This document shows, piece by piece, positions 1,634 through 27,346 of a stretch of 28,423 nucleotides of DNA. Each line of letters opens with the position of its first letter. Within the stretch, counting starts at the first letter, position 1. The position numbers and the translations under genes are program-made. Source of the stretch: a virus. The notes under the pieces are model-generated. The model saw nothing but the letters and a program-made list of their open reading frames with translations, did no database searches and had not been told where the DNA came from. The stretch is from positions 1 to 28,423 of IMG/VR virus record IMGVR_UViG_3300021368_000800; one strand, written 5' to 3'.

Positions 1634-2004
1634 TATACTTTCCTCAGTTCTTCAATTATGGTTTTGTCCATAGGGACACTTACATATTTAGTATTATCGA
1701 TCACTCTAAGATAAATTAAAAACGGTTTTAATATCTGCCAGTCATCGACTAGGGGAACTCGAAACTCTAACATTTTCAGTCCGTTCTCGTTACCAAACAC
1801 ATTGAAAATGATAACTAGATGATTCAGTATCAGATTGACAGATGGACTTCCACCTTCCTTGTATCGGGTGATAAGTCGTTTTAAATACTTAAATCGATTT
1901 AGATCCTCATAAAACTCTTCGGGATCGATACACAAAGGATTGTGATAACTGCGGATCGCATATAACTCAAAGTTTTTTTCTGACAACTCTTCAAACAATT
2001 TCAT
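1633..2004 (-). CDS. Conserved phage protein (DUF7207-like), 123 aa
   Basis: A compact helical protein with the pattern NPLCIDPEEFYEDLNRFKYLKRLI (in two parts, about residues 22-45), then LILNHLVIIFNVFG and a C-terminal LKPFLIYL segment. This arrangement is one I recall from a small conserved family in T4-like cyanophages and relatives, probably labelled DUF7207; I cannot verify the label here. There is no signal peptide or catalytic motif. ATG at 2004 overlaps the upstream TGA (ATGA), and its stop overlaps the next ATG by one base, so it is translationally coupled with the glycosyltransferase upstream and the 195-residue protein downstream. Function unknown. Confidence 0.65.
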   Translation of the reverse strand: MKLFEELSEKNFELYAIRSYHNPLCIDPEEFYEDLNRFKYLKRLITRYKEGGSPSVNLILNHLVIIFNVFGNENGLKMLEFRVPLVDDWQILKPFLIYLRVIDNTKYVSVPMDKTIIEELRKV

Positions 2005-2747
2005 AACAAATCATAACACCTTGGTAGATTTTTATTTTCGCTTATAGGTATATATTCTAATGACCTACCTTGGGGCCCAGCCAAAAGTGGCAATCTTTTT
2101 TTGTTGAATCTATCTACAACCGCATCAATGATATCTTCCTCATCCTCATATTCTATGATTCTAAAAAAATCACTACCCAAACCAGAACTTGCTTTTTTCA
2201 CACATTGTTTCAAACCACCAAACCATGTCAGATGCCACCCCTTGTGTTCTGCAGCCGTCGGTAATTTTAGTTTGTATCCGCGATAAGAGTTGACATTAAC
2301 AAAACGATTTTTCCCTAGTATCGCATAACTAAGGAATGAGTCAATGTTGACTATTCGATGTTCTATATCGTATGCATACCATTCACCGGTAAAACGAACT
2401 GCTTCATGATGGACTAACAAGTCTTTGACAGTATCTAAATTTTTATAATTCCAGATTTCATCAACATCGCTATGAAAGACAATGTCTTCGTCATCACAAT
2501 CTATTGAAAGAACACCAGCTTCTCTGACAGGCCATTCACCCTCTAAGTTTAACTGGACATACTGTATTTTTGATTCGAATTTGGAAAACCTATCTTTCAT
2601 TTTAGGCCAAGTGAGTTCTTTAGGTTCGCCAAGTATGGTGAGAGTGCTTTCAATTATGACAAACTTGTCCACTACACCATCATAGTGGTGCAGACGGAAG
2701 TTAAGCATTTGCTCTTCACCATTGAATAAAAAAGAATCAATTATCAT
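2001..2747 (-). CDS. Glycosyltransferase family 17 (N-acetylglucosaminyltransferase-like)
   Basis: A single-domain 248-residue glycosyltransferase. The family hallmarks are all present: MIIDSFLFNGEEQMLNFRL at the start, DKFVIIEST near 28-36, a metal-binding DxD-type site in FHSDVDEI (91-98), and KGWHLTWFGG (about 167-177). Members of GT17 include the bisecting beta-1,4-N-acetylglucosaminyltransferase and many bacterial and phage enzymes. The sugar donor and acceptor cannot be read from the sequence. In a phage the likely targets are virion glycoproteins, host surface glycans or modified DNA bases; this is inference. It is followed by coupled genes (4-base overlap at 2001) and preceded directly by a 51-residue gene whose stop ends at 2748. 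The start ATG at 2747 gives the conserved N-terminus. Confidence 0.85.
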   Translation of the reverse strand: MIIDSFLFNGEEQMLNFRLHHYDGVVDKFVIIESTLTILGEPKELTWPKMKDRFSKFESKIQYVQLNLEGEWPVREAGVLSIDCDDEDIVFHSDVDEIWNYKNLDTVKDLLVHHEAVRFTGEWYAYDIEHRIVNIDSFLSYAILGKNRFVNVNSYRGYKLKLPTAAEHKGWHLTWFGGLKQCVKKASSGLGSDFFRIIEYEDEEDIIDAVVDRFNKKRLPLLAGPQGRSLEYIPISENKNLPRCYDLL

Positions 2748-4747: not shown

Positions 4748-5620
4748 TTACTTGGCATATTGTAAATTAATTAACTGCTGGTGCTTTAATTCCTGCGCCA
4801 GCCCCACTCTCAATCCTCTTCTATTGTTGGGTAGTTCTTTATCTTTCAATGTAATTGTATCCTCATAAGAACCACCTACAAGAGAATTTAGGTAACCAAC
4901 TGGTAGACCACGAAGGGCCATCAGTTGTTGGTGAAGAGCGATCTGTTCTTCACTAAATTCGTATTGTGTTTCTTCTATCCCCAGAAGAGATTCTAGTCCC
5001 GATCTCTCTTCTGCCTCTTGCGCGATCTTCAACCGTTCGCGTCTTTCTTCATCTTCCTTTTGTTGTTTCAGATTCGCCTTTCTATCTAGTTCGTTCTGAA
5101 TCATGTCGTCTGCGAGAGGATCATAAATCGACGCATCCTCAAAGTTCAGATCTACCGGTGACTCATAGCCTGGACATGACGGGTTACTTTGCGGGTCAAA
5201 ACACGGGTCAAACTGATACGAGTAATAGACTCCTGCGTCATACACCGACCCCTTACCTTCGGTCTCTATCGAACCCAACCCCCAGTAACTAATGTCGATG
5301 TTAGGTACTGCGACATTCTTATTGATGGTGGAGCCTGGTAGCCCCGACCAATCATCGGTCTCACGAAATATGTATCCTTCACCTTGTGCGTTTTCGTTTT
5401 GAACATGAACTAACAAATCATCTTCGGTCTCTTTGTCCACCGAATAGTTATAGATGACCGCATTGACCTGTAACCCTGCCTGTTGTGGCAGAATATTGGT
5501 CATCACCCACTGGTAACCAAAGGATGTCGCGTTCTGTGTTACTCCGAATGTTGTTTCAGAGTAAGAGTGCGAGGAGCAAAGCAGCAATACCGCCGCCCCC
5601 AATAGCCGTCTTAGTTCCAT
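4748..5620 (-). CDS. Exported coiled-coil protein, 290 aa
   Basis: Starts with a strong signal peptide MELRRLLGAAVLLLCSSHSYS. The N-terminal half is beta-rich and aromatic (FGYQWVMTNILP, DISYWGLGSI, YYSYQFDPCFDP with a Cys pair); the middle (about residues 175-215) is a charged coiled coil rich in Glu, Arg and Lys; the end is helical. ATG at 5620 has an AAGGA ribosome site seven bases upstream. Remarkably, its first 65 bases overlap the end of the upstream gene in another frame, so one DNA stretch encodes a signal peptide in this frame and a C-terminal membrane anchor in the other. Envelope-located; function unknown. Confidence 0.75.
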   Translation of the reverse strand: MELRRLLGAAVLLLCSSHSYSETTFGVTQNATSFGYQWVMTNILPQQAGLQVNAVIYNYSVDKETEDDLLVHVQNENAQGEGYIFRETDDWSGLPGSTINKNVAVPNIDISYWGLGSIETEGKGSVYDAGVYYSYQFDPCFDPQSNPSCPGYESPVDLNFEDASIYDPLADDMIQNELDRKANLKQQKEDEERRERLKIAQEAEERSGLESLLGIEETQYEFSEEQIALHQQLMALRGLPVGYLNSLVGGSYEDTITLKDKELPNNRRGLRVGLAQELKHQQLINLQYAK

Positions 5621-6119
5621 CCGATAGTCCTTCGTCTCCGGTTGCCTCTGCTTCTAGTGCAGCTGCTTCCCACCCTGCCTTCGCATCTTCACCAATCAAA
5701 CCATCATAGGGACAGGGAGTTCCGGCGTGCATCATTGCGTCAAAGACTCGTTCGTCTTGGCACATGACACTGACCGCAGCTACCTTCATACCCATATCAT
5801 AGAGTGTCTTAGCATTCTTGAGCCGTTCACAGTTCTCATCCGTCACCTGAGTACCGGTTGAGATACCAAGGATCTGAGTTTGAACCGCACCCGCAACGCC
5901 GAATGTACAGAGATCACTGTTCGATGTGTTGATGGTTGGTGTAATTGCAGAAGCAGGGGGTGATTTCAGAGTCGTTGTGGTATTACCGGTCGTCGTGATA
6001 GTGGACGTGGTAGTTGACTCTGTGCGAATAGTATCATCAACTGGATCTGCCAAGGGAGTATCGTCCTGAGCAAATGTCAGTGATGAGAGAAACAACAAAA
6101 CAATTGTTAGAAAACGCAT
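5556..6119 (-). CDS. Exported, C-terminally membrane-anchored protein, 187 aa
   Basis: Start ATG at 6119 gives signal peptide MRFLTIVLLFLSSLTFAQ and has an AAAGGA ribosome site; the ATG at 6143 is too near the late promoter (TATAAATA at 6154-6161) to be in the mRNA with a leader. After a Thr-rich stretch (TTTSTITTTGNTTTT) comes a conserved-looking domain, SDLCTFGVAGAVQTQILGIS and KTLYDMGMKVAAVSVMCQD, with four Cys, and a C-terminal hydrophobic anchor GGGGIAALLLALLL. I recall this domain from T4-like marine phages, function unknown. It is the first gene after the late promoter and heads the exported-protein set. Confidence 0.75.
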   Translation of the reverse strand: MRFLTIVLLFLSSLTFAQDDTPLADPVDDTIRTESTTTSTITTTGNTTTTLKSPPASAITPTINTSNSDLCTFGVAGAVQTQILGISTGTQVTDENCERLKNAKTLYDMGMKVAAVSVMCQDERVFDAMMHAGTPCPYDGLIGEDAKAGWEAAALEAEATGDEGLSDGTKTAIGGGGIAALLLALLL

Positions 6120-11977: not shown

Positions 11978-13198
11978 CTATCTCCTACTAGGTTTCTGCC
12001 ATCCCTTCAATATATCTGGTGAAAAGTTGTTGTAGGAAAACTCCATACGATCAACCAATTTCACCGCGTCACCACCAAGTGTATCAATTGCTACATAACC
12101 TTCTTGACCAGTTGTCTTATAACCCTTTGAAGTCTTCACAAAAGTTTCAAGAGAACCGATCCTGTTCAATTTATTTATAAGAATTAATTTCGCATCTACG
12201 ATTAATTTTTGTAATTGAAACATTTTTTCTAAATTTTGTAGATTTTTTGTATCGAAAAAATCCAGCAATGATTGCATGATTGCCTTCTGTGTTGCCTTAC
12301 CTTTTGGGGTCTTACGCAACGACATCTGCTTTGCATACTTAGACTTAATCCAAGTGATTAGTCTACGAGCGTGTTGTTTGGGGTCTTTGATTCTTTGTCC
12401 TTTTCGGACATAGGTGTTGTTGAACTGCTCGATATGCTGAGCCAAGGATTGGTTGGATTCGAGTTGACGTAGAGTAGATCCAGATATTGAATTAAATAGT
12501 GTTCCAATTTCCGAAAGAATTGCATTGACTTTCTCCGTTTCTGCTGAGGTCATTGTTGCACCGCGAACATCTCGTAACATGGCATCCTGCGACCAGACAT
12601 TACGCGACTTGTTGAGTCCTGCGACATTCACACCATACGACGCTCGCATTGTCTCAAACGATCGACCGGTGTAGGTTGTGTGCCAAACGATACCAATCTT
12701 TGCTTTACGAATCTCTTTCGATTGTTCTACTGGCACTGCGTAGACAATCGTGTTGGGGTGGAATGTCACATAAGTTTTCCCGTCAATCCTCTTGGTTCCC
12801 AGATCTCCGCGACCAAACAGGAAGTCGCCCTGAATGACACCCTTGATACCCAGCTCGGGAAGATACTGTAATGCGTCCTTGAGTTTGACTGCAAGGTCAC
12901 CAGATGTATCTGCATCAATCTCTGCGGCAGTCTTGTAGACCTTGGGGTTCTTGTTGAAGATACCTTTCTTGGCAACAAAGAACTCTCCGTCACGGGGATC
13001 GATACCCGCAAAGATCGCAGGCGCACCGTCCCACTTCACGGAGACTCCGGTCTCTTTCTTACCAGCCAACATATTACGCAACTCACGCAATGCGTTGATG
13101 GCCTGTCGAGTCCCGTCCACACCCCCATAGAGAACCTTGTCCTCAATGTGAGTCATGTGGGTGTTCTTTGACTCAGCAATGTATTCTAAAAAGTCCAT
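11978..13198 (-). CDS. DUF6267-like protein with KxDG ligase-type motif and leader, 406 aa
   Basis: Starts MDFLEYIAESKNT: Y-I-A-E then Ser at residues 6-10 matches T4 internal-protein processing sites closely. The body matches a conserved T4-like marine phage family I recall as DUF6267. It contains SVKWDGAPAIFAGID (53-67): KWDG is the form taken by motif I of covalent nucleotidyltransferases (DNA and RNA ligases, capping enzymes), where the Lys (here K55) carries AMP or GMP. VIQGDFLFG (121-129) and KIGIVWHT (167-174) could be motifs III and IV/V. An RNA or DNA ligase-like activity is inferred. C-terminal helices are Lys-rich. It may be packed in the head like T4 Alt. Confidence 0.7.
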   Translation of the reverse strand: MDFLEYIAESKNTHMTHIEDKVLYGGVDGTRQAINALRELRNMLAGKKETGVSVKWDGAPAIFAGIDPRDGEFFVAKKGIFNKNPKVYKTAAEIDADTSGDLAVKLKDALQYLPELGIKGVIQGDFLFGRGDLGTKRIDGKTYVTFHPNTIVYAVPVEQSKEIRKAKIGIVWHTTYTGRSFETMRASYGVNVAGLNKSRNVWSQDAMLRDVRGATMTSAETEKVNAILSEIGTLFNSISGSTLRQLESNQSLAQHIEQFNNTYVRKGQRIKDPKQHARRLITWIKSKYAKQMSLRKTPKGKATQKAIMQSLLDFFDTKNLQNLEKMFQLQKLIVDAKLILINKLNRIGSLETFVKTSKGYKTTGQEGYVAIDTLGGDAVKLVDRMEFSYNNFSPDILKGWQKPSRR

Positions 13199-13206
13199 TA
13201 CTTTTC

Positions 13207-13788
13207 CTAAAATGTATAGTTAAAAGTGTCGATATCGTTTTTGTACATATGATCAACCAATGCTTTAGATTCATCGTTATACATATCACGATAGTCCATA
13301 TGAAAATTTTTTGTTTCGTGTACTCGTTTTGTGGATAACATTAAACCGATGTTTTTTAGTTCTTCTTGTAAATTTTCATACCTAATTAACTGAACAGTAT
13401 CAACATTCAACCATCTTATCTGTTGTGTACTTGGGCCAAACCAAGTGTCTTCCCAAGGATTGTGTGCGTATGTTTTTAACCAATCAACAAAATTAAGTTT
13501 TTTCTCTTCCGGATTTGGTGTTCTTTGCATTCGAAAATGATACCAACTGGATGCTCGATCCCAAGGGTTTCGAATTACTGCAAATTTATGATACTCATTG
13601 TATTTTGTGTATGACAAAAAATGCTTGCAATCATCCATCGTCGCGTGCTTGTTTTTCGTTATCATAATGTTTGTATTGATTTCACTCGTGTTAGGGTCTA
13701 TGGATCGTATAGCGTTGCCCACAGACCCACCAGCACATTTTGGAATATGAATGAAAATCAGTTTGTTTGTATCAGATACTAAAGCCAT
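13207..13788 (-). CDS. Sulfotransferase (PAPS-dependent, carbohydrate type), 193 aa
   Basis: Both PAPS-binding motifs are present: the 5-prime phosphosulfate loop IFIHIPKCAGGSVGNAI (11-27) and the 3-prime phosphate motif VIRNPWDRASSWY (71-83). This is the pattern of Sulfotransfer_2-type enzymes, which move sulfate from PAPS to a sugar hydroxyl. At 193 residues it is at the short end for the family, but the core is complete. The acceptor is unknown; in this setting it may be a virion glycan or a host surface sugar, perhaps related to the family-17 glycosyltransferase at 2001-2747. It lies directly after a probable virion surface protein (one-base gap) and before the DUF6267 gene. AT-rich compared with neighbours, suggesting separate acquisition. 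Confidence 0.8.
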   Translation of the reverse strand: MALVSDTNKLIFIHIPKCAGGSVGNAIRSIDPNTSEINTNIMITKNKHATMDDCKHFLSYTKYNEYHKFAVIRNPWDRASSWYHFRMQRTPNPEEKKLNFVDWLKTYAHNPWEDTWFGPSTQQIRWLNVDTVQLIRYENLQEELKNIGLMLSTKRVHETKNFHMDYRDMYNDESKALVDHMYKNDIDTFNYTF

Positions 13789-13789
13789 A

Positions 13790-14566
13790 TTAATTGTCGA
13801 CCAGTATTATATCAAAAATTGCGCCATGTCCGGCAGTACCAGAGTCAACGTTTACTTTGATGTCAGTTTTTTCTTCGAACACCAAAGGCACTGGATAGTC
13901 ATATGTCACCGCGTTACCACCCTGAGTTCCCCACTGACCTTTGAGGTTAAACGCACCACCAAATTCTCGTGCGAACAACTTGAACTTCACATCGACATTC
14001 TGTTTGTCCATCGACCCCTGAAACTTAACAAAGTATCCAGTCTTACCGGCAGGAATTGTATAGACTGCCATGAGAGTCTGTCCGTTACCAGCAAGAATCT
14101 GTGCGGCAAGGTTACCACCGATGTTGATTGTGATTACCCCGACATTAGTCGCAGTTGTCTTCCGAACACGAAAGATTCGTGAAAATATTTCGGTAGTCGT
14201 TGCACCCACTGTGGTTGTGACTGTAAGTGGATTGTAGTCGGCGTCTAGTCCCTGAATCTCAATACCTTCTCCGGTATCGTCACCACTGGTGGACGATGAC
14301 GATGCAACACCTGCAGCCGGATATGGATAGTCAGCAGTTGTGCCGTTAGCATCCCAGATCGTTCCAGATGTTGCGTCCGTACCTTGATAACCGAACTTAT
14401 TGATGTGAGAGTATCCTGTGACATCTCCAGCTGCGATAGGTATGTTGGATGCAGACCCGAATGAATTTAATATATTTCCGGCTTGGTCAGCAACCATAAC
14501 AACTTCATGGAGATCAAGATTGTTGACTCCATAATGTTGGTTTCTATTTACACTATACTGTGCCAT
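13790..14566 (-). CDS. Probable virion structural protein, 258 aa
   Basis: Begins MAQYSVNRNQHYGVNNLDLH. Composition is Gly, Thr, Ala and Asn rich with alternating strands (ATNVGVITINIGGNLAAQI), typical of beta-sandwich tail-fibre or capsid decoration proteins; YTIPAGKTGYFVKFQGSM and FEEKTDIKVNVDS recall receptor-binding or jelly-roll domains. There is no signal peptide or enzyme motif. Its ribosome site, GGAGG, lies within the remnant of a duplicated oxidase 3-prime end directly upstream (14567-14671). Virion role is inferred from composition and from its position beside another such protein. Confidence 0.65.
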   Translation of the reverse strand: MAQYSVNRNQHYGVNNLDLHEVVMVADQAGNILNSFGSASNIPIAAGDVTGYSHINKFGYQGTDATSGTIWDANGTTADYPYPAAGVASSSSTSGDDTGEGIEIQGLDADYNPLTVTTTVGATTTEIFSRIFRVRKTTATNVGVITINIGGNLAAQILAGNGQTLMAVYTIPAGKTGYFVKFQGSMDKQNVDVKFKLFAREFGGAFNLKGQWGTQGGNAVTYDYPVPLVFEEKTDIKVNVDSGTAGHGAIFDIILVDN

Positions 14567-14671
14567 TTATTCCTCCGCGAATCTATGATTTGCTTTTGCG
14601 TGATTTTGTTCGTCTTCTCGAATGCGATAGATCATGTCGTATATTGTCGCATCCTCCCTTAAACCATAATA
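14567..14671 (-). pseudogene. Remnant duplicate of the alternative oxidase 3-prime end
   Basis: Minus-strand translation gives YYGLREDATIYDMIYRIRED, then EQNHAKANHRFAEE and a stop. This matches residues 155-187 of the intact alternative oxidase (15538-16101) with five substitutions plus one extra Glu, and long identical DNA runs such as the stretch encoding EQNHAKANH. It has no start of its own in frame before YYG; the frame begins right after the stop of the 14675-15538 gene. It is therefore a truncated second copy, diverged from the intact gene. It retains the last diiron Glu and His of the family but nothing upstream. It now supplies the GGAGG ribosome site for the gene starting at 14566. 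Confidence 0.85.
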
Positions 14672-14674
14672 ACA

Positions 14675-15538
14675 TTATGCTAGTACCGGTGCAACGCCTG
14701 AGTTCGTGACCCAGATCGAAAGCCAATTGCCGCTATACTCTCTTTCCGTTCCTGTCAATGCGACACCGCCAACCGCAGACACATTGTTGTATCCTAATGA
14801 ACTTGACCCAATCTCTCGTAATTTGCCAGCGTTTTCGGCCAAGATTGAGGCATCATCGCCAGTCAGATCTGTTCCAGTATCTTCATCATGCCAGAACATA
14901 TTATATGCACCAACAGCAGATTCACGACCAAGTGTATCCGCATTTGTAGTATTCATCGTTGTCACATTCGGATCTGTTACAACTTGTTGCTTTGTATACA
15001 CTATGCCTTTGTGTGTGAAAGTGGGGTCAGAAGGTAATTTACTTTGATCGCCACTGCCAAAATCGCCTACTAGAATAGTGATATGTGTTGCGTCTGACAT
15101 CACGGTTGCGTAATCTGCGTCGGTCATTATGCTATTTGCCGTAGGACTAGATATACCAAAGTCCCCCTTTGTTCGTGCGTTTACTTCCCAACTTGTATCA
15201 AGTGAGAGATATGCTACCAGATAACCAAACTCTGTGTCATAAGTGTGACTACCACTGAGAGATGGTTGACCACCACCGCCACCACCGCCTACTGCGGGGA
15301 GACTAGAAAAGAACGATGCGGGTTTGACTTCTTTATTATAGAATGTCGCAGAGATTTCACCGCGATTCTTACCATCGGGATCTGTGGTCTTTTTGGTCTC
15401 AGTGTAGACCTGAGTCAAACCCGTAGTTCGAACACCACCTACTTGTTTGTTGTGCAGTGCACTACGGGCAAAGCCAGGGTTTGTGGGATCGTCCTTGAAC
15501 TGCCAACCCGAACGATTAGGTATGTTTTTATATGCCAT
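14675..15538 (-). CDS. Probable virion structural protein with poly-Gly linker, 287 aa
   Basis: Starts MAYKNIPNRSGWQFKDDPTN at an ATG that overlaps the oxidase stop by one base (TAATG at 15538). The first 85 residues form a Lys/Thr-rich domain; then a flexible PAVGGGGGGGQPS linker and a second domain rich in Thr, Asp, Ser and Gly (DTEFGYLVAYLSLDTSW, YATVMSDATHITILVGDFG). Two-domain, Gly-linked, strand-rich proteins of this kind are usual in phage tails or fibres; no enzyme motif or signal peptide is visible. It is flanked on both sides by the same oxidase 3-prime sequence, indicating that it moved or was duplicated together with an oxidase gene. Confidence 0.65.
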   Translation of the reverse strand: MAYKNIPNRSGWQFKDDPTNPGFARSALHNKQVGGVRTTGLTQVYTETKKTTDPDGKNRGEISATFYNKEVKPASFFSSLPAVGGGGGGGQPSLSGSHTYDTEFGYLVAYLSLDTSWEVNARTKGDFGISSPTANSIMTDADYATVMSDATHITILVGDFGSGDQSKLPSDPTFTHKGIVYTKQQVVTDPNVTTMNTTNADTLGRESAVGAYNMFWHDEDTGTDLTGDDASILAENAGKLREIGSSSLGYNNVSAVGGVALTGTEREYSGNWLSIWVTNSGVAPVLA

Positions 15539-16101
15539 TATTCTGCGTACCTATGATTTGCTTTTGCGTGATTTTGTTCGTCTTGCCGAATGCGATAGAT
15601 CATGTCATACACAGACGCATCCTTTCTTAAACCATAATAATCAATTGCAATCTGTGGCGCGGGGGGGTTGTCAATACACCCTTTACCAATCAACATCAAG
15701 TATGTGTCATAACTCTTTACTGCTTCCTCTTCGAAGTATGCAGTCATCTTGTGTCCCAATTTGGGACTAAGAATGTAGATGACCAGATAGAAGTGCCAGA
15801 ATACAAACTGAATCACATAGATCATGAATCGTTCGAATGCGTTTGCGTGTACCACTTCCATCATGAACATCAAGTGTTTGCGTTCGTTCTCCGCCTCTGC
15901 GAACAGTTCGTGTATCTTGTGTCCGTTACCGCGTTCCATACGGCGCAGTGATCTCAGGTGAGTGACCATCGCACCCACCAAGCCTGGTACTCCTGCAACT
16001 GTTTCCAAAACAAGAGCGCGTCTATCGTATCGTTGACGAAACCAAATGTCCGCAAAGAACCGGAACATTCGTGTCATTAGTTTCGCAATTCTATCTCTCA
16101 T
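15538..16101 (-). CDS. aox: Alternative oxidase (diiron ubiquinol oxidase), 187 aa
   Basis: All diiron-carboxylate motifs of alternative oxidases are present: LETVAGVPGLVGAMVTHLRS (32-51, ligand E33), FAEAENERKHLMFM (67-80, ligands E73 and H76), AYFEEEAVKSYD (121-132, one Glu of the EEE), and IRQDEQNHAKANH (171-183, ligands E175 and H178). Hydrophobic helices near 93-112 fit monotopic membrane binding. The enzyme oxidises ubiquinol and reduces oxygen to water without pumping protons. It is shorter than usual bacterial forms (about 220) but lacks only N-terminal sequence. Start ATG 16101 is chosen for the GAGG ribosome site and because it abuts the upstream stop; an open frame to 16209 exists. 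Cyanophages carry a related plastoquinol oxidase, whereas this one resembles the respiratory type. Confidence 0.92.
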   Translation of the reverse strand: MRDRIAKLMTRMFRFFADIWFRQRYDRRALVLETVAGVPGLVGAMVTHLRSLRRMERGNGHKIHELFAEAENERKHLMFMMEVVHANAFERFMIYVIQFVFWHFYLVIYILSPKLGHKMTAYFEEEAVKSYDTYLMLIGKGCIDNPPAPQIAIDYYGLRKDASVYDMIYRIRQDEQNHAKANHRYAE

Positions 16102-16102
16102 A

Positions 16103-17491
16103 TCATCCCTCAATTTTTGCATACGGTGCGGAGAAACTACTCTTAGACCCCGCATAATAATATATGTCTTTAGTGATCTGATCTTTAATGTTCTTATTTT
16201 GTGCATCAATCGTGGTCAAGACTTTGAACGCAAGATACTTTGCATACCTCCACTTCATTGGTTGTTGATAACACATAAGAATGTGATCTGCCATGGGTGG
16301 TAGGTTATTCACACCAAGTTTCTTCGCCATCTCATAAATCTCTTTACAAAGCGAATCGTCCTTTCTTCGAACACGACCAGCAACATCACTACTTTTTGGC
16401 AAAGACACACCAGTGTATTGTTTGATAATGAAAGAAGCGGGGCCTAATGATACTTTACCTTGGTTTGCAGTCTCCCCTTTTATCTCTCCCTGAAAACCAG
16501 TGAGTCCGTCACCGGTGCCAAAACTTCTCCACTGTATTCGGTCAAACGATCGTTCACCAAAATAAAGATACGCATCCATTGAATCGTAGATTGTTGCGCG
16601 ATCATTTGCCTTGGTGATGTACCTTACAAACTTAACACCGGATGTTGTTCCTTTCGATTCATTGACATTGATTTGACTGTATCTTGCTGTAGTTTCACAT
16701 TTTTTCAGTGACACTCCAATCACTTTCTTATCAAGGTACATTTTCGTCATTTCTCCATTCAGACCTTTTAGAGATTTTTCACCGGTGATTGACGATATGT
16801 CTTGATTGTTCTTGAAGATATACATGTCTGCTGGAGACCACTTGTTGATGTCTCCAAACGCACCTTCTTTTCGATTGATTGCTTTGAATGTAGTTTCTAT
16901 CTCTTCAACCAAAGAACTTCCACGATGGAATCTAGCGTCTCGAACATGCATGTACTTATCGTACAATTTGTTTGCTCCAAGTATCGATGACTTTATCCAA
17001 TCTTCCGGAAGGTTTTGCATCATATTCTCTAATGGTTCAGTGACATCACAAAAACCGTAGGCAGTCTTGAACTGAGTTGGACTTACAATCTCATCTAGTT
17101 TCATCTTTCTTTTGAAAACATACCACACCAGAGCACAGTACAGACATTGTGCAGATTCCACCAATGCAGTGATATCAGAACCCGCACCAGAACCACCGCC
17201 TCCACCAAACTCATCGGTTTTTTCTAAAGCATCTAAACGAACAATGTTGCCATTGATTTTATCTCTAAAAAGATTTTGATTTCGCAATAAACCTTCGAGA
17301 TTGCCTTGTTCGAACTTTATCTGAATGTCGCGAGAAGCATAATCCAAATATTTTGTCGTACCATCAAGCATGGCAAACGATTCACCCGCCGAAATCTTAG
17401 AGATAACTTTCGTATATCTCCGTTTCGGATGATCCGGATGTCGTTTAGCAAATTCTTTTGACAAATCTGCGAGTGTTAGTTTACCTGCCAT
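16103..17491 (-). CDS. Large unknown phage protein, possible nuclease-like core, 462 aa
   Basis: Starts MAGKLTLADLSKEFAKRHPD with ATG 17491. Two domains joined by a flexible FGGGGGSGAGSD linker (about residues 95-106): the N-domain is basic and contains KVISKISAGESFAMLDGT; the C-domain contains DINKWSPADMYIFKNNQD and, further on, KKVIGVSLKKCET. The spacing of an Asp-bearing strand and a strand ending in x-L-K-K is reminiscent of PD-(D/E)xK nuclease or related folds, but the pattern is loose. It is the first gene after a strong terminator and carries a T4-type late promoter 28 bases upstream, so it is probably expressed late. Function unknown; virion-associated or DNA-processing roles are both possible. 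Confidence 0.7.
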   Translation of the reverse strand: MAGKLTLADLSKEFAKRHPDHPKRRYTKVISKISAGESFAMLDGTTKYLDYASRDIQIKFEQGNLEGLLRNQNLFRDKINGNIVRLDALEKTDEFGGGGGSGAGSDITALVESAQCLYCALVWYVFKRKMKLDEIVSPTQFKTAYGFCDVTEPLENMMQNLPEDWIKSSILGANKLYDKYMHVRDARFHRGSSLVEEIETTFKAINRKEGAFGDINKWSPADMYIFKNNQDISSITGEKSLKGLNGEMTKMYLDKKVIGVSLKKCETTARYSQINVNESKGTTSGVKFVRYITKANDRATIYDSMDAYLYFGERSFDRIQWRSFGTGDGLTGFQGEIKGETANQGKVSLGPASFIIKQYTGVSLPKSSDVAGRVRRKDDSLCKEIYEMAKKLGVNNLPPMADHILMCYQQPMKWRYAKYLAFKVLTTIDAQNKNIKDQITKDIYYYAGSKSSFSAPYAKIEG

Positions 17492-23095: not shown

Positions 23096-23113
23096 AACAA
23101 AACTCCTTATCAT

Positions 23114-23136
23114 CAAATTACAGGGTAATTGTCTCA
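23114..23136 (-). repeat. Promoter-overlapping repeat, copy 1 (palindrome ATTACCCTGTAAT)
   Basis: This 23-base segment is identical to 24181-24203 except one base. It spans the -10 and the start of the transcript and contains the inverted repeat ATTAC-CCT-GTAAT. Placement over the start site in two promoters suggests a shared operator for a phage or host regulator. Confidence 0.65.
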
Positions 23137-24164: not shown

Positions 24165-24180
24165 AACAATCACTCCATCT

Positions 24181-24203
24181 CAAATTACAGGGTAATTATC
24201 TCA
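24181..24203 (-). repeat. Promoter-overlapping repeat, copy 2 (palindrome ATTACCCTGTAAT)
   Basis: Differs from 23114-23136 at one base only. It again covers the -10 (GATAAT) and the start region, with the ATTAC/GTAAT arms. Two copies 1.07 kb apart in otherwise unrelated gaps point to a common operator or recently copied promoter. Confidence 0.65.
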
Positions 24204-26101: not shown

Positions 26102-27346
26102 TTAGAATTGGTCTTCTTCCGTTGACCCTGCACCCGCCGCAGTCGAACCGCTTCCGAGCGCCGTCGTAATCGCGTCGAAATAGGACACTCCGACTTCCTG
26201 TTGGTGTTTTGCTGAGGTATATCCTTCATATCTTGCTCCGATTTCTCTTTGCTGCAATCTTGAATATGCCAACATACCGTCTGCCTTGTATTCCTGCGCG
26301 AACTGGAATACGGCATAGTTTGTGGCGTGGAATCCCCCAAGTGTAATAAACTGGAACACATAACCCATCTTCGCAAGTTCGCCTTGGAATGCTTTGAGTT
26401 CGTCGTCGTTTGGAATTGCTTTTTTCCAGTTGAATGATGGCGAACAGTTATACGCCAACATTGCGTCCGGTACTGCACCCTTCACCGCGTCTGCAAATCT
26501 CTTCGCTTCTTTCAGACATGGTTTGGATGTCTCACACCAGACTAGGTCTGCATACTCTGCGTATGCCTGTCCTCGAACACAACCGTATTCGAGACCCATC
26601 CCTTCTTTCAGCATGTAGAACCCTTCGGATGTCCGACACTTGATCGAACCCGCAGAACCTTGTGCAACTCGTTTGATGAAGGGTTTGTCAATGTCACTCA
26701 CATCAGATGAAAGTAACTTAGCACTTTCGGCGTCAGTTCGAGCAATGACCACGGTATCAGTACCAGCAACATCACTAGCGAGACGAGCAGCGTTAAGATT
26801 ACGGATAGCTGCAGATACAGGTATAAGAACCTTTCCTCCCAAGTGACCGCATTTCTTTTCACTTGCGAGTTGGTCTTCAAAGTGGACTCCGGCAGCGCCG
26901 GCGTCGATAAGGTTTCTTGCGAGTTCGTATGCATTTAGTACCCCTCCGAATCCTGCTTCTGCGTCAGCGATGATGGGAGCGTAGCGAAACCCCCGACCGC
27001 ATTCCAGATAGGAGATTTGGTCTTGACGTTTAAATGCGTTATTAATGCTACGAACAACGTCAGGAACAGAATTGACAGCGTATAGTGATTGATCAGGATA
27101 GACCTCTTGGGTTGAGTTTGCCGCAGCTGCGACTTGCCATCCCGAACAGTAGATTGCTTTGAGACCTGCCTTGACGTGTTGGACTGCTTGTTGTCCATTG
27201 TAAGCTCCAAAGGTGTTGACATAAAGATGGTCACGAAACATGGCGCGTAGATTGTGCGCTTGGTCTCGTGCGAATTGATTGGTGTAGTGACGACTACCCC
27301 GTAATTTTTCTACGACCTGTAAGTCGTAATCTCGTTTCTTTTTCAT
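26102..27346 (-). CDS. aceA: Isocitrate lyase, 414 aa
   Basis: Complete glyoxylate-bypass enzyme splitting isocitrate to glyoxylate and succinate. Motifs: CSGWQVAAAAN (71-81), YPDQSLYAVNSVP (88-100), IADAEAGFGGVLNAYE (124-139), the signature DQLASEKKCGHLGGK with the catalytic Cys in KKCGHL, VIARTDAES, WCETSKPC, YNCSPSFNW, FITLGGFH and the closing STEEDQF that folds over the active site. All substrate-binding residues I know appear intact. It is about 20 residues shorter than E. coli AceA (434) at the N-terminus. ATG 27346 overlaps the stop of a 32-residue gene by four bases. Malate synthase is not in the window. Phage-borne; expected to shift carbon from the decarboxylating TCA steps (inference). 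Confidence 0.95.
   Translation of the reverse strand: MKKKRDYDLQVVEKLRGSRHYTNQFARDQAHNLRAMFRDHLYVNTFGAYNGQQAVQHVKAGLKAIYCSGWQVAAAANSTQEVYPDQSLYAVNSVPDVVRSINNAFKRQDQISYLECGRGFRYAPIIADAEAGFGGVLNAYELARNLIDAGAAGVHFEDQLASEKKCGHLGGKVLIPVSAAIRNLNAARLASDVAGTDTVVIARTDAESAKLLSSDVSDIDKPFIKRVAQGSAGSIKCRTSEGFYMLKEGMGLEYGCVRGQAYAEYADLVWCETSKPCLKEAKRFADAVKGAVPDAMLAYNCSPSFNWKKAIPNDDELKAFQGELAKMGYVFQFITLGGFHATNYAVFQFAQEYKADGMLAYSRLQQREIGARYEGYTSAKHQQEVGVSYFDAITTALGSGSTAAGAGSTEEDQF

Follow-up and report, generated by a model that had tools for sequence, protein, structure and literature searches.

Introduction

Phage mosaicism reflects a mix of illegitimate and homeologous events, as a study of lambda Red described (PMC2327257), and T4-related phages are thought to acquire DNA through illegitimate exchange carried out by their homologous-recombination enzymes (reviewed in PMC2993671). 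The locus described here is like such mosaics in that its joints fall on gene boundaries or close to them, one side having little homology and the other showing homologous exchange, and in that tail-fibre-like genes are swapped. It is unlike them in that the end of a metabolic gene, an alternative oxidase (AOX), is the recurrent scar and coincides with the predicted ribosome-binding site of the next gene.

Shuffling in T4-like phages is also mediated by PeSL cassettes, which consist of a promoter and a stem-loop (Arbiol 2010 and Comeau 2014, cited in PMC4503421). As those cassettes are summarized there, they share with the present locus a short expression-signal sequence that may offer homology for shuffling neighbouring genes; PeSL is a promoter plus a stem-loop, whereas the signal of the AOX remnant is a Shine-Dalgarno sequence inside coding sequence. 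A scan covering sigma-70-type sites gave no promoter-like match on the minus strand of the remnant region (14567-14672), no terminator-like stem-loop was found on the gene strand of the remnant (the only match, 14577-14593, is on the plus strand), and the RNA fold of the region was not unusual (z=-1.25). The remnant was rejected as a PeSL cassette because gene-strand promoter-like and terminator-like matches were both absent.

A related oxidase, PTOX (plastoquinol terminal oxidase, phrog_4235), is known in cyanophages (PMC7472177). Both are related di-iron oxidases of marine T4-like phages; unlike PTOX, the AOX studied here matches the Pfam AOX family, matches phrog_4235 weakly, and sits among virion genes. 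Judged by title or abstract, no publication that we found describes an AOX remnant of this kind. The DNA analysed, hereafter the window, is a stretch of 28,423 nt (IMG/VR record IMGVR_UViG_3300021368_000800); it is one metagenomic contig, and all evidence on its joint comes from the assembled sequence.

Results

All features of the locus are on the minus strand. Its left border is gp462 (phrog_1462; 16103-17491), followed by an intact AOX gene (15538-16101) of about 187 aa that matches Pfam PF01786 (E=3.7e-63) over positions 15-215 of the 216 in the profile and has the Glu and ExxH iron-ligand motifs (NERKH, DEQNH). The AOX start at 16101 was chosen because it aligns with the starts in relatives; the frame from the ORF caller is longer and begins at 16209. 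The sole match to AOX in the phage collection was Phage C48C1 (59% identity). The next gene, VG287 (14675-15538; 864 nt, 287 aa), has a start codon that overlaps the AOX stop (TAATG), and beyond it are the AOX remnant and VG258 (13790-14566), which encodes a virion (tail-fibre-like) protein of phrog_8198. A sulfotransferase-family gene (13207-13788) lies between VG258 and the DUF6267 gene (11978-13198), which is the conserved right border of the variable locus. The sulfotransferase-family gene is absent from this position in relatives L001, L002, L003, and L005, and the homology of VG258 to L001 ends about 10 nt short of the VG258 stop, near that gene.

Cyanophage homologues of VG258 are annotated as tail fiber or virion structural protein. 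The VG258 structure model was of moderate quality (pLDDT 65) and beta-rich, with weak matches in the PDB and viral matches that were mostly unnamed phage proteins. VG287 is modular, its N-terminal and C-terminal parts occurring separately in relatives. Used alone as a query, VG287 had no relatives in the viral or phage collection; a profile of its C-terminal part matched four loci, all within the compared set. Its structure model was unusable (pLDDT 31).

A repeat search of the window returned D1, by far the longest repeat, in which 104 nt at 14569-14672 match 15537-15640 in the same orientation with 87% identity and a spacing of 968. One copy, tail1 (15537-15640), is the 3' end of the intact AOX and ends in HRYAE-TAATG without a Shine-Dalgarno sequence. 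The other, tail2 (14567-14672), is a headless AOX 3' end of 34 codons plus a stop, the scar. On its own, tail2 matches Pfam AOX at profile positions 184-216 (E=1e-8), and tblastn picks it up as a second location (E=1.5e-17); a degenerate C-terminal AOX pattern matched exactly twice in the window and not once in 100 shuffles. The frame of tail2 opens straight after the VG287 stop with no start codon, and its first in-frame ATG is internal. Tail2 retains only the last ExxH and cannot work as an oxidase. The preliminary description, which reported a duplicated oxidase 3' end on both sides of an 864-base gene, was correct in both respects, but it gave the headless copy as 33 codons rather than 34 plus a stop.

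The joint (14672-14677) has the sequence CATAATGTTATTATGGTTTAAGG, which reads as the VG287 stop, ATG, TTAT, and TATGG. CATAATGTTAT corresponds to the stop of VG287 and the start after it as they occur in L005, and AOX continues from TTATTATGG onward. The word common to the two sides at 14672/14673 is about 4 nt long, or 7 nt with one mismatch.

Close AOX genes are encoded in three viral contigs: L001, L002, and L003. Over the 99 coding nt of the last 33 codons, there are 13 differences between tail1 and tail2, 5 between tail1 and L001, 8 between tail2 and L001, and 7 between tail2 and L002; tail2 thus matches L001 at 91/99 and L002 at 92/99, compared with 86/99 for tail1. The end of tail1 (TACGCAGAATAATGG) resembles that of L003 (TACGCAGAGTAATGG), the last bases being common to both, and the end of tail2 (TTCGCGGAGGAATAAATGG) is as in L001. 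Because of these pairwise distances and distinct 3' ends, the two tails are best read as alleles from two arrangements and not as an in-place duplicate.

Relatives carry the genes of the locus in varied orders: gp462-AOX-VG258-DUF6267 in L001, AOX-VG258-DUF6267 in L002, AOX-DUF6267 in L003, VG287-DUF6267 in L015, VG287-AOX-DUF6267 in L019, gp462-VG258-AOX-DUF6267 in L020, and VG258-VG287 N-terminal part-DUF6267 in L057. Given these varied orders across the wider set of loci, the stretch from gp462 to DUF6267 is a shuffling locus. Window positions 13800-14672, which hold tail2 and most of VG258, align unbroken to L001 at 91% identity, which indicates that tail2-VG258 is an old AOX-VG258 junction and makes tail1 with VG287 the other component. 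The segments flanking the joint have different nearest relatives, and the intact junction of one putative parent is present in L001. Window AOX and tail2/VG258 (91-92%) are nearest to L001; unlike VG258, the DUF6267 gene and gp487 beyond it are nearest to L005 (91-92%) and L003 (89%). A search for AOX directly before VG258 or VG287, as the preliminary description had proposed, gave VG258 in L001 and L002 but not VG287 among the compared relatives, and no contig with the order AOX-VG287-DUF6267 was found. The recombination between related phages proposed there is supported by the contiguity of AOX and VG258 in L001, the tail distances, and the L003-like end of tail1.

In marine viral contigs AOX is widespread, with 403 candidate stretches; most of the loci examined (L087-L166) have it away from the virion-gene locus. 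The VG258 proteins of L002 (1703-1850) and L001 (5634-5785) have unrelated N-terminal modules (MAQYSVNRNQHYG... and MGASRYLNNEGIW..., respectively) on the same core, a case of module swapping inside a virion gene.

AOX ends were also found before VG258 in three other contigs. L005 and L169, from different samples, carry the same scar: after the VG287 stop comes the DUF6267 start MLSF(S/A)DTLTEQ, which L015 has in slightly altered form; it is joined at GAACAAAA to the final 45 nt of AOX, and VG258 follows. The DUF6267 half (34 nt, 94%, E=5e-9) and the AOX half (45 nt, 89%, E=1e-10) overlap by 8 nt. L176 shares its upstream gene with L002; in it, only the first 12 nt (ATGAAAGACAAA) and last 44 nt of AOX remain ahead of VG258, with a broken frame. 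The L169 and L176 records, both of them fragments, yielded no AOX at other positions. Directly before VG258, then, AOX stretches of 106, 45, and 44 nt remain from three different joints, which argues against an assembly fault specific to the window. The L176 and L005/L169 scars may not be fully independent, as suggested by alleles shared within the scar. Scars this short were missed by HMM and were found by reading junctions and with DNA patterns; by HMM, none of the 88 other AOX loci had a second AOX piece. Gene ends were also sought in every short intergenic gap; apart from the AOX scars, this screen returned mostly unpredicted small genes. The window remnant is one of a recurring class of AOX-end scars that precede a single virion gene family. 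L176 also has an open frame at 5350-5919 that resembles a GIY-YIG endonuclease, its translation judged by eye, and overlaps the DUF6267 end.

A short distance ahead of the VG258 ATG, the closing codons of AOX (GAGGAATAA and similar sequences) supply the Shine-Dalgarno sequence of that gene; in the window it is GGAGGA, in the last codons of the remnant (14571-14576). A Shine-Dalgarno sequence was present in the last 20 nt of all three intact AOX genes before VG258 (L001, L002, and L190) and of the AOX end in all four scar-bearing contigs (window, L005, L169, and L176). It was present in 0/8 AOX ends leading to VG287 (window) or to DUF6267, either directly (L003, L019, L020, and L039) or across a gap (L158, L161, and L162). 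For comparison, 20/83 other AOX ends had a Shine-Dalgarno-like 4-mer. The correlation is clear, in a set of few and partly related cases.

The AOX end also marks the boundary of later exchanges. L001 and L002 have 95% identity across AOX, no relatedness in the first 150 nt or so past the AOX stop, and 98% identity over the next 2.2 kb. The window and L001 share an identical run of 298 nt (14319-14616) that begins 50 nt inside the AOX tail and reaches 247 nt into VG258; 12 differences fall in the 60 nt upstream of the run and 73 in the other 528 nt of VG258, downstream of it. L005 and L169 are 90-100% identical through the VG287 end and the scar, and diverge within VG258. Given these divergence points and the 298-nt tract, the AOX end was used in recent exchanges of the VG258 5' module, or at least is where they ended. 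AOX as a homology anchor, an idea of the preliminary description, fits these later exchanges (the 298-nt tract and the L001/L002 boundary), but homology between AOX copies is not supported as the maker of the rearrangement itself: the founding joint is nearly non-homologous, and the joints of L005/L169 and L176 differ from it.

Elsewhere in the window are an isocitrate lyase family gene (26102-27346, minus strand; PF00463, E=1.9e-88; no PHROG match), which is an unusual metabolic gene for a phage, and a glycosyltransferase family 17 gene (2001-2747, minus strand). A 24-nt repeat at 23113-23136 and 24180-24203 (TGAGACAATTACCCTGTAATTTGA on the gene strand; 96% identical) has counterparts of similar sequence in L001 and the AOX loci L106-L108, and looks like a shared regulatory element.

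Discussion

We consider it probable that the scar was made by recombination between related T4-like marine phages, that the AOX end was kept for the ribosome-binding site of VG258, and that this end later served as a homologous arm. One parent would have had the order AOX-VG287 and then, probably, DUF6267, as suggested by the match of ATGTTAT at the joint to L005; the other would have had AOX-VG258. A crossover with almost no homology, possibly involving recombination enzymes, would have joined the VG287 end (its stop and the first bases of the next gene) to a point inside the AOX of the second parent, 106 nt before the AOX end. The product would carry intact AOX, VG287, VG258, and DUF6267, with an AOX end stranded between VG287 and VG258. 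The scar would persist because GGAGGA lies just before the VG258 ATG, behind an A-rich leader, in the last codons of AOX, so that a viable joint must leave the VG258 leader in place. The AOX end would afterwards act as a homologous arm for swapping VG258 5' modules.

Retention of the scar for VG258 translation is suggested by the ribosome-binding site predicted in the AOX end. If the origin is as proposed, the remnant might nonetheless persist only as recent debris or as a homology arm and play no part in VG258 translation, which we consider unlikely though worth weighing: exchange tracts start inside the AOX end and the scars may be young, but no joint leaves fewer than the last 44 nt, the AOX end persists in L176 and the window despite the lost reading frame, and, among AOX ends leading to VG258, VG287, or DUF6267, the Shine-Dalgarno sequence is present only where VG258 follows. 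We put forward, as a tentative generalization, that the AOX 3' end may be a portable leader for a virion gene, combining a ribosome-binding site with a homologous arm for 5' modules, and that the oxidase can accordingly be lost while at least the last 44 nt are kept in several lineages.

The remnant could alternatively descend from a full second AOX (AOX-VG287-AOX-VG258) whose body was lost by internal deletion, leaving the last 34 codons. L176 has such an internal AOX deletion before VG258, and VG287 is directly before AOX in L019. This origin is rather improbable, since it requires two events, none of the 89 AOX-bearing loci has two AOX genes, and the joint bases ATGTTAT resemble the DUF6267 start of L005 and not the observed AOX starts.

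Tandem duplication of the AOX tail in one genome, with or without VG287, followed by divergence, was an option in the preliminary description and would account for two like-oriented tails separated by about 1 kb. The distances make it very improbable, as the tails differ from each other more than either does from L001, and tail2 has its 3' end and downstream gene in common with L001, as tail1 has its 3' end with L003. Equally improbable is an assembly chimera of two co-occurring phages. The window is a single contig whose parts have different nearest relatives, as in a chimera, but the few bases common to both sides of the joint are not enough to mislead an assembler, the flanking genes are intact, and the same architecture with its own scar is present in L005 and L169 from other samples.

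An independent 34-codon gene can be dismissed almost completely: a short open frame with an ATG spans the scar in L005 and L169, but the window has no in-frame start, the frame is broken in L176, and the remnants, which the preliminary description allowed might be such a conserved gene, are AOX in sequence and vary in length and frame among relatives. An insertion sequence or transposon was also rejected; the two ends of VG287 lack inverted repeats, and the direct repeat flanking it is gene sequence, 13% diverged.

The locus shows that auxiliary metabolic and tail-fibre-like genes are shuffled jointly in marine phages, and the scar is a readable mark from which the recombining parental gene orders can be inferred. 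If retention of the gene end serves translation of the next gene, metabolic-gene remnants in phages can be working leaders and not debris, and the location of a ribosome-binding site would steer the exchange of virion modules.
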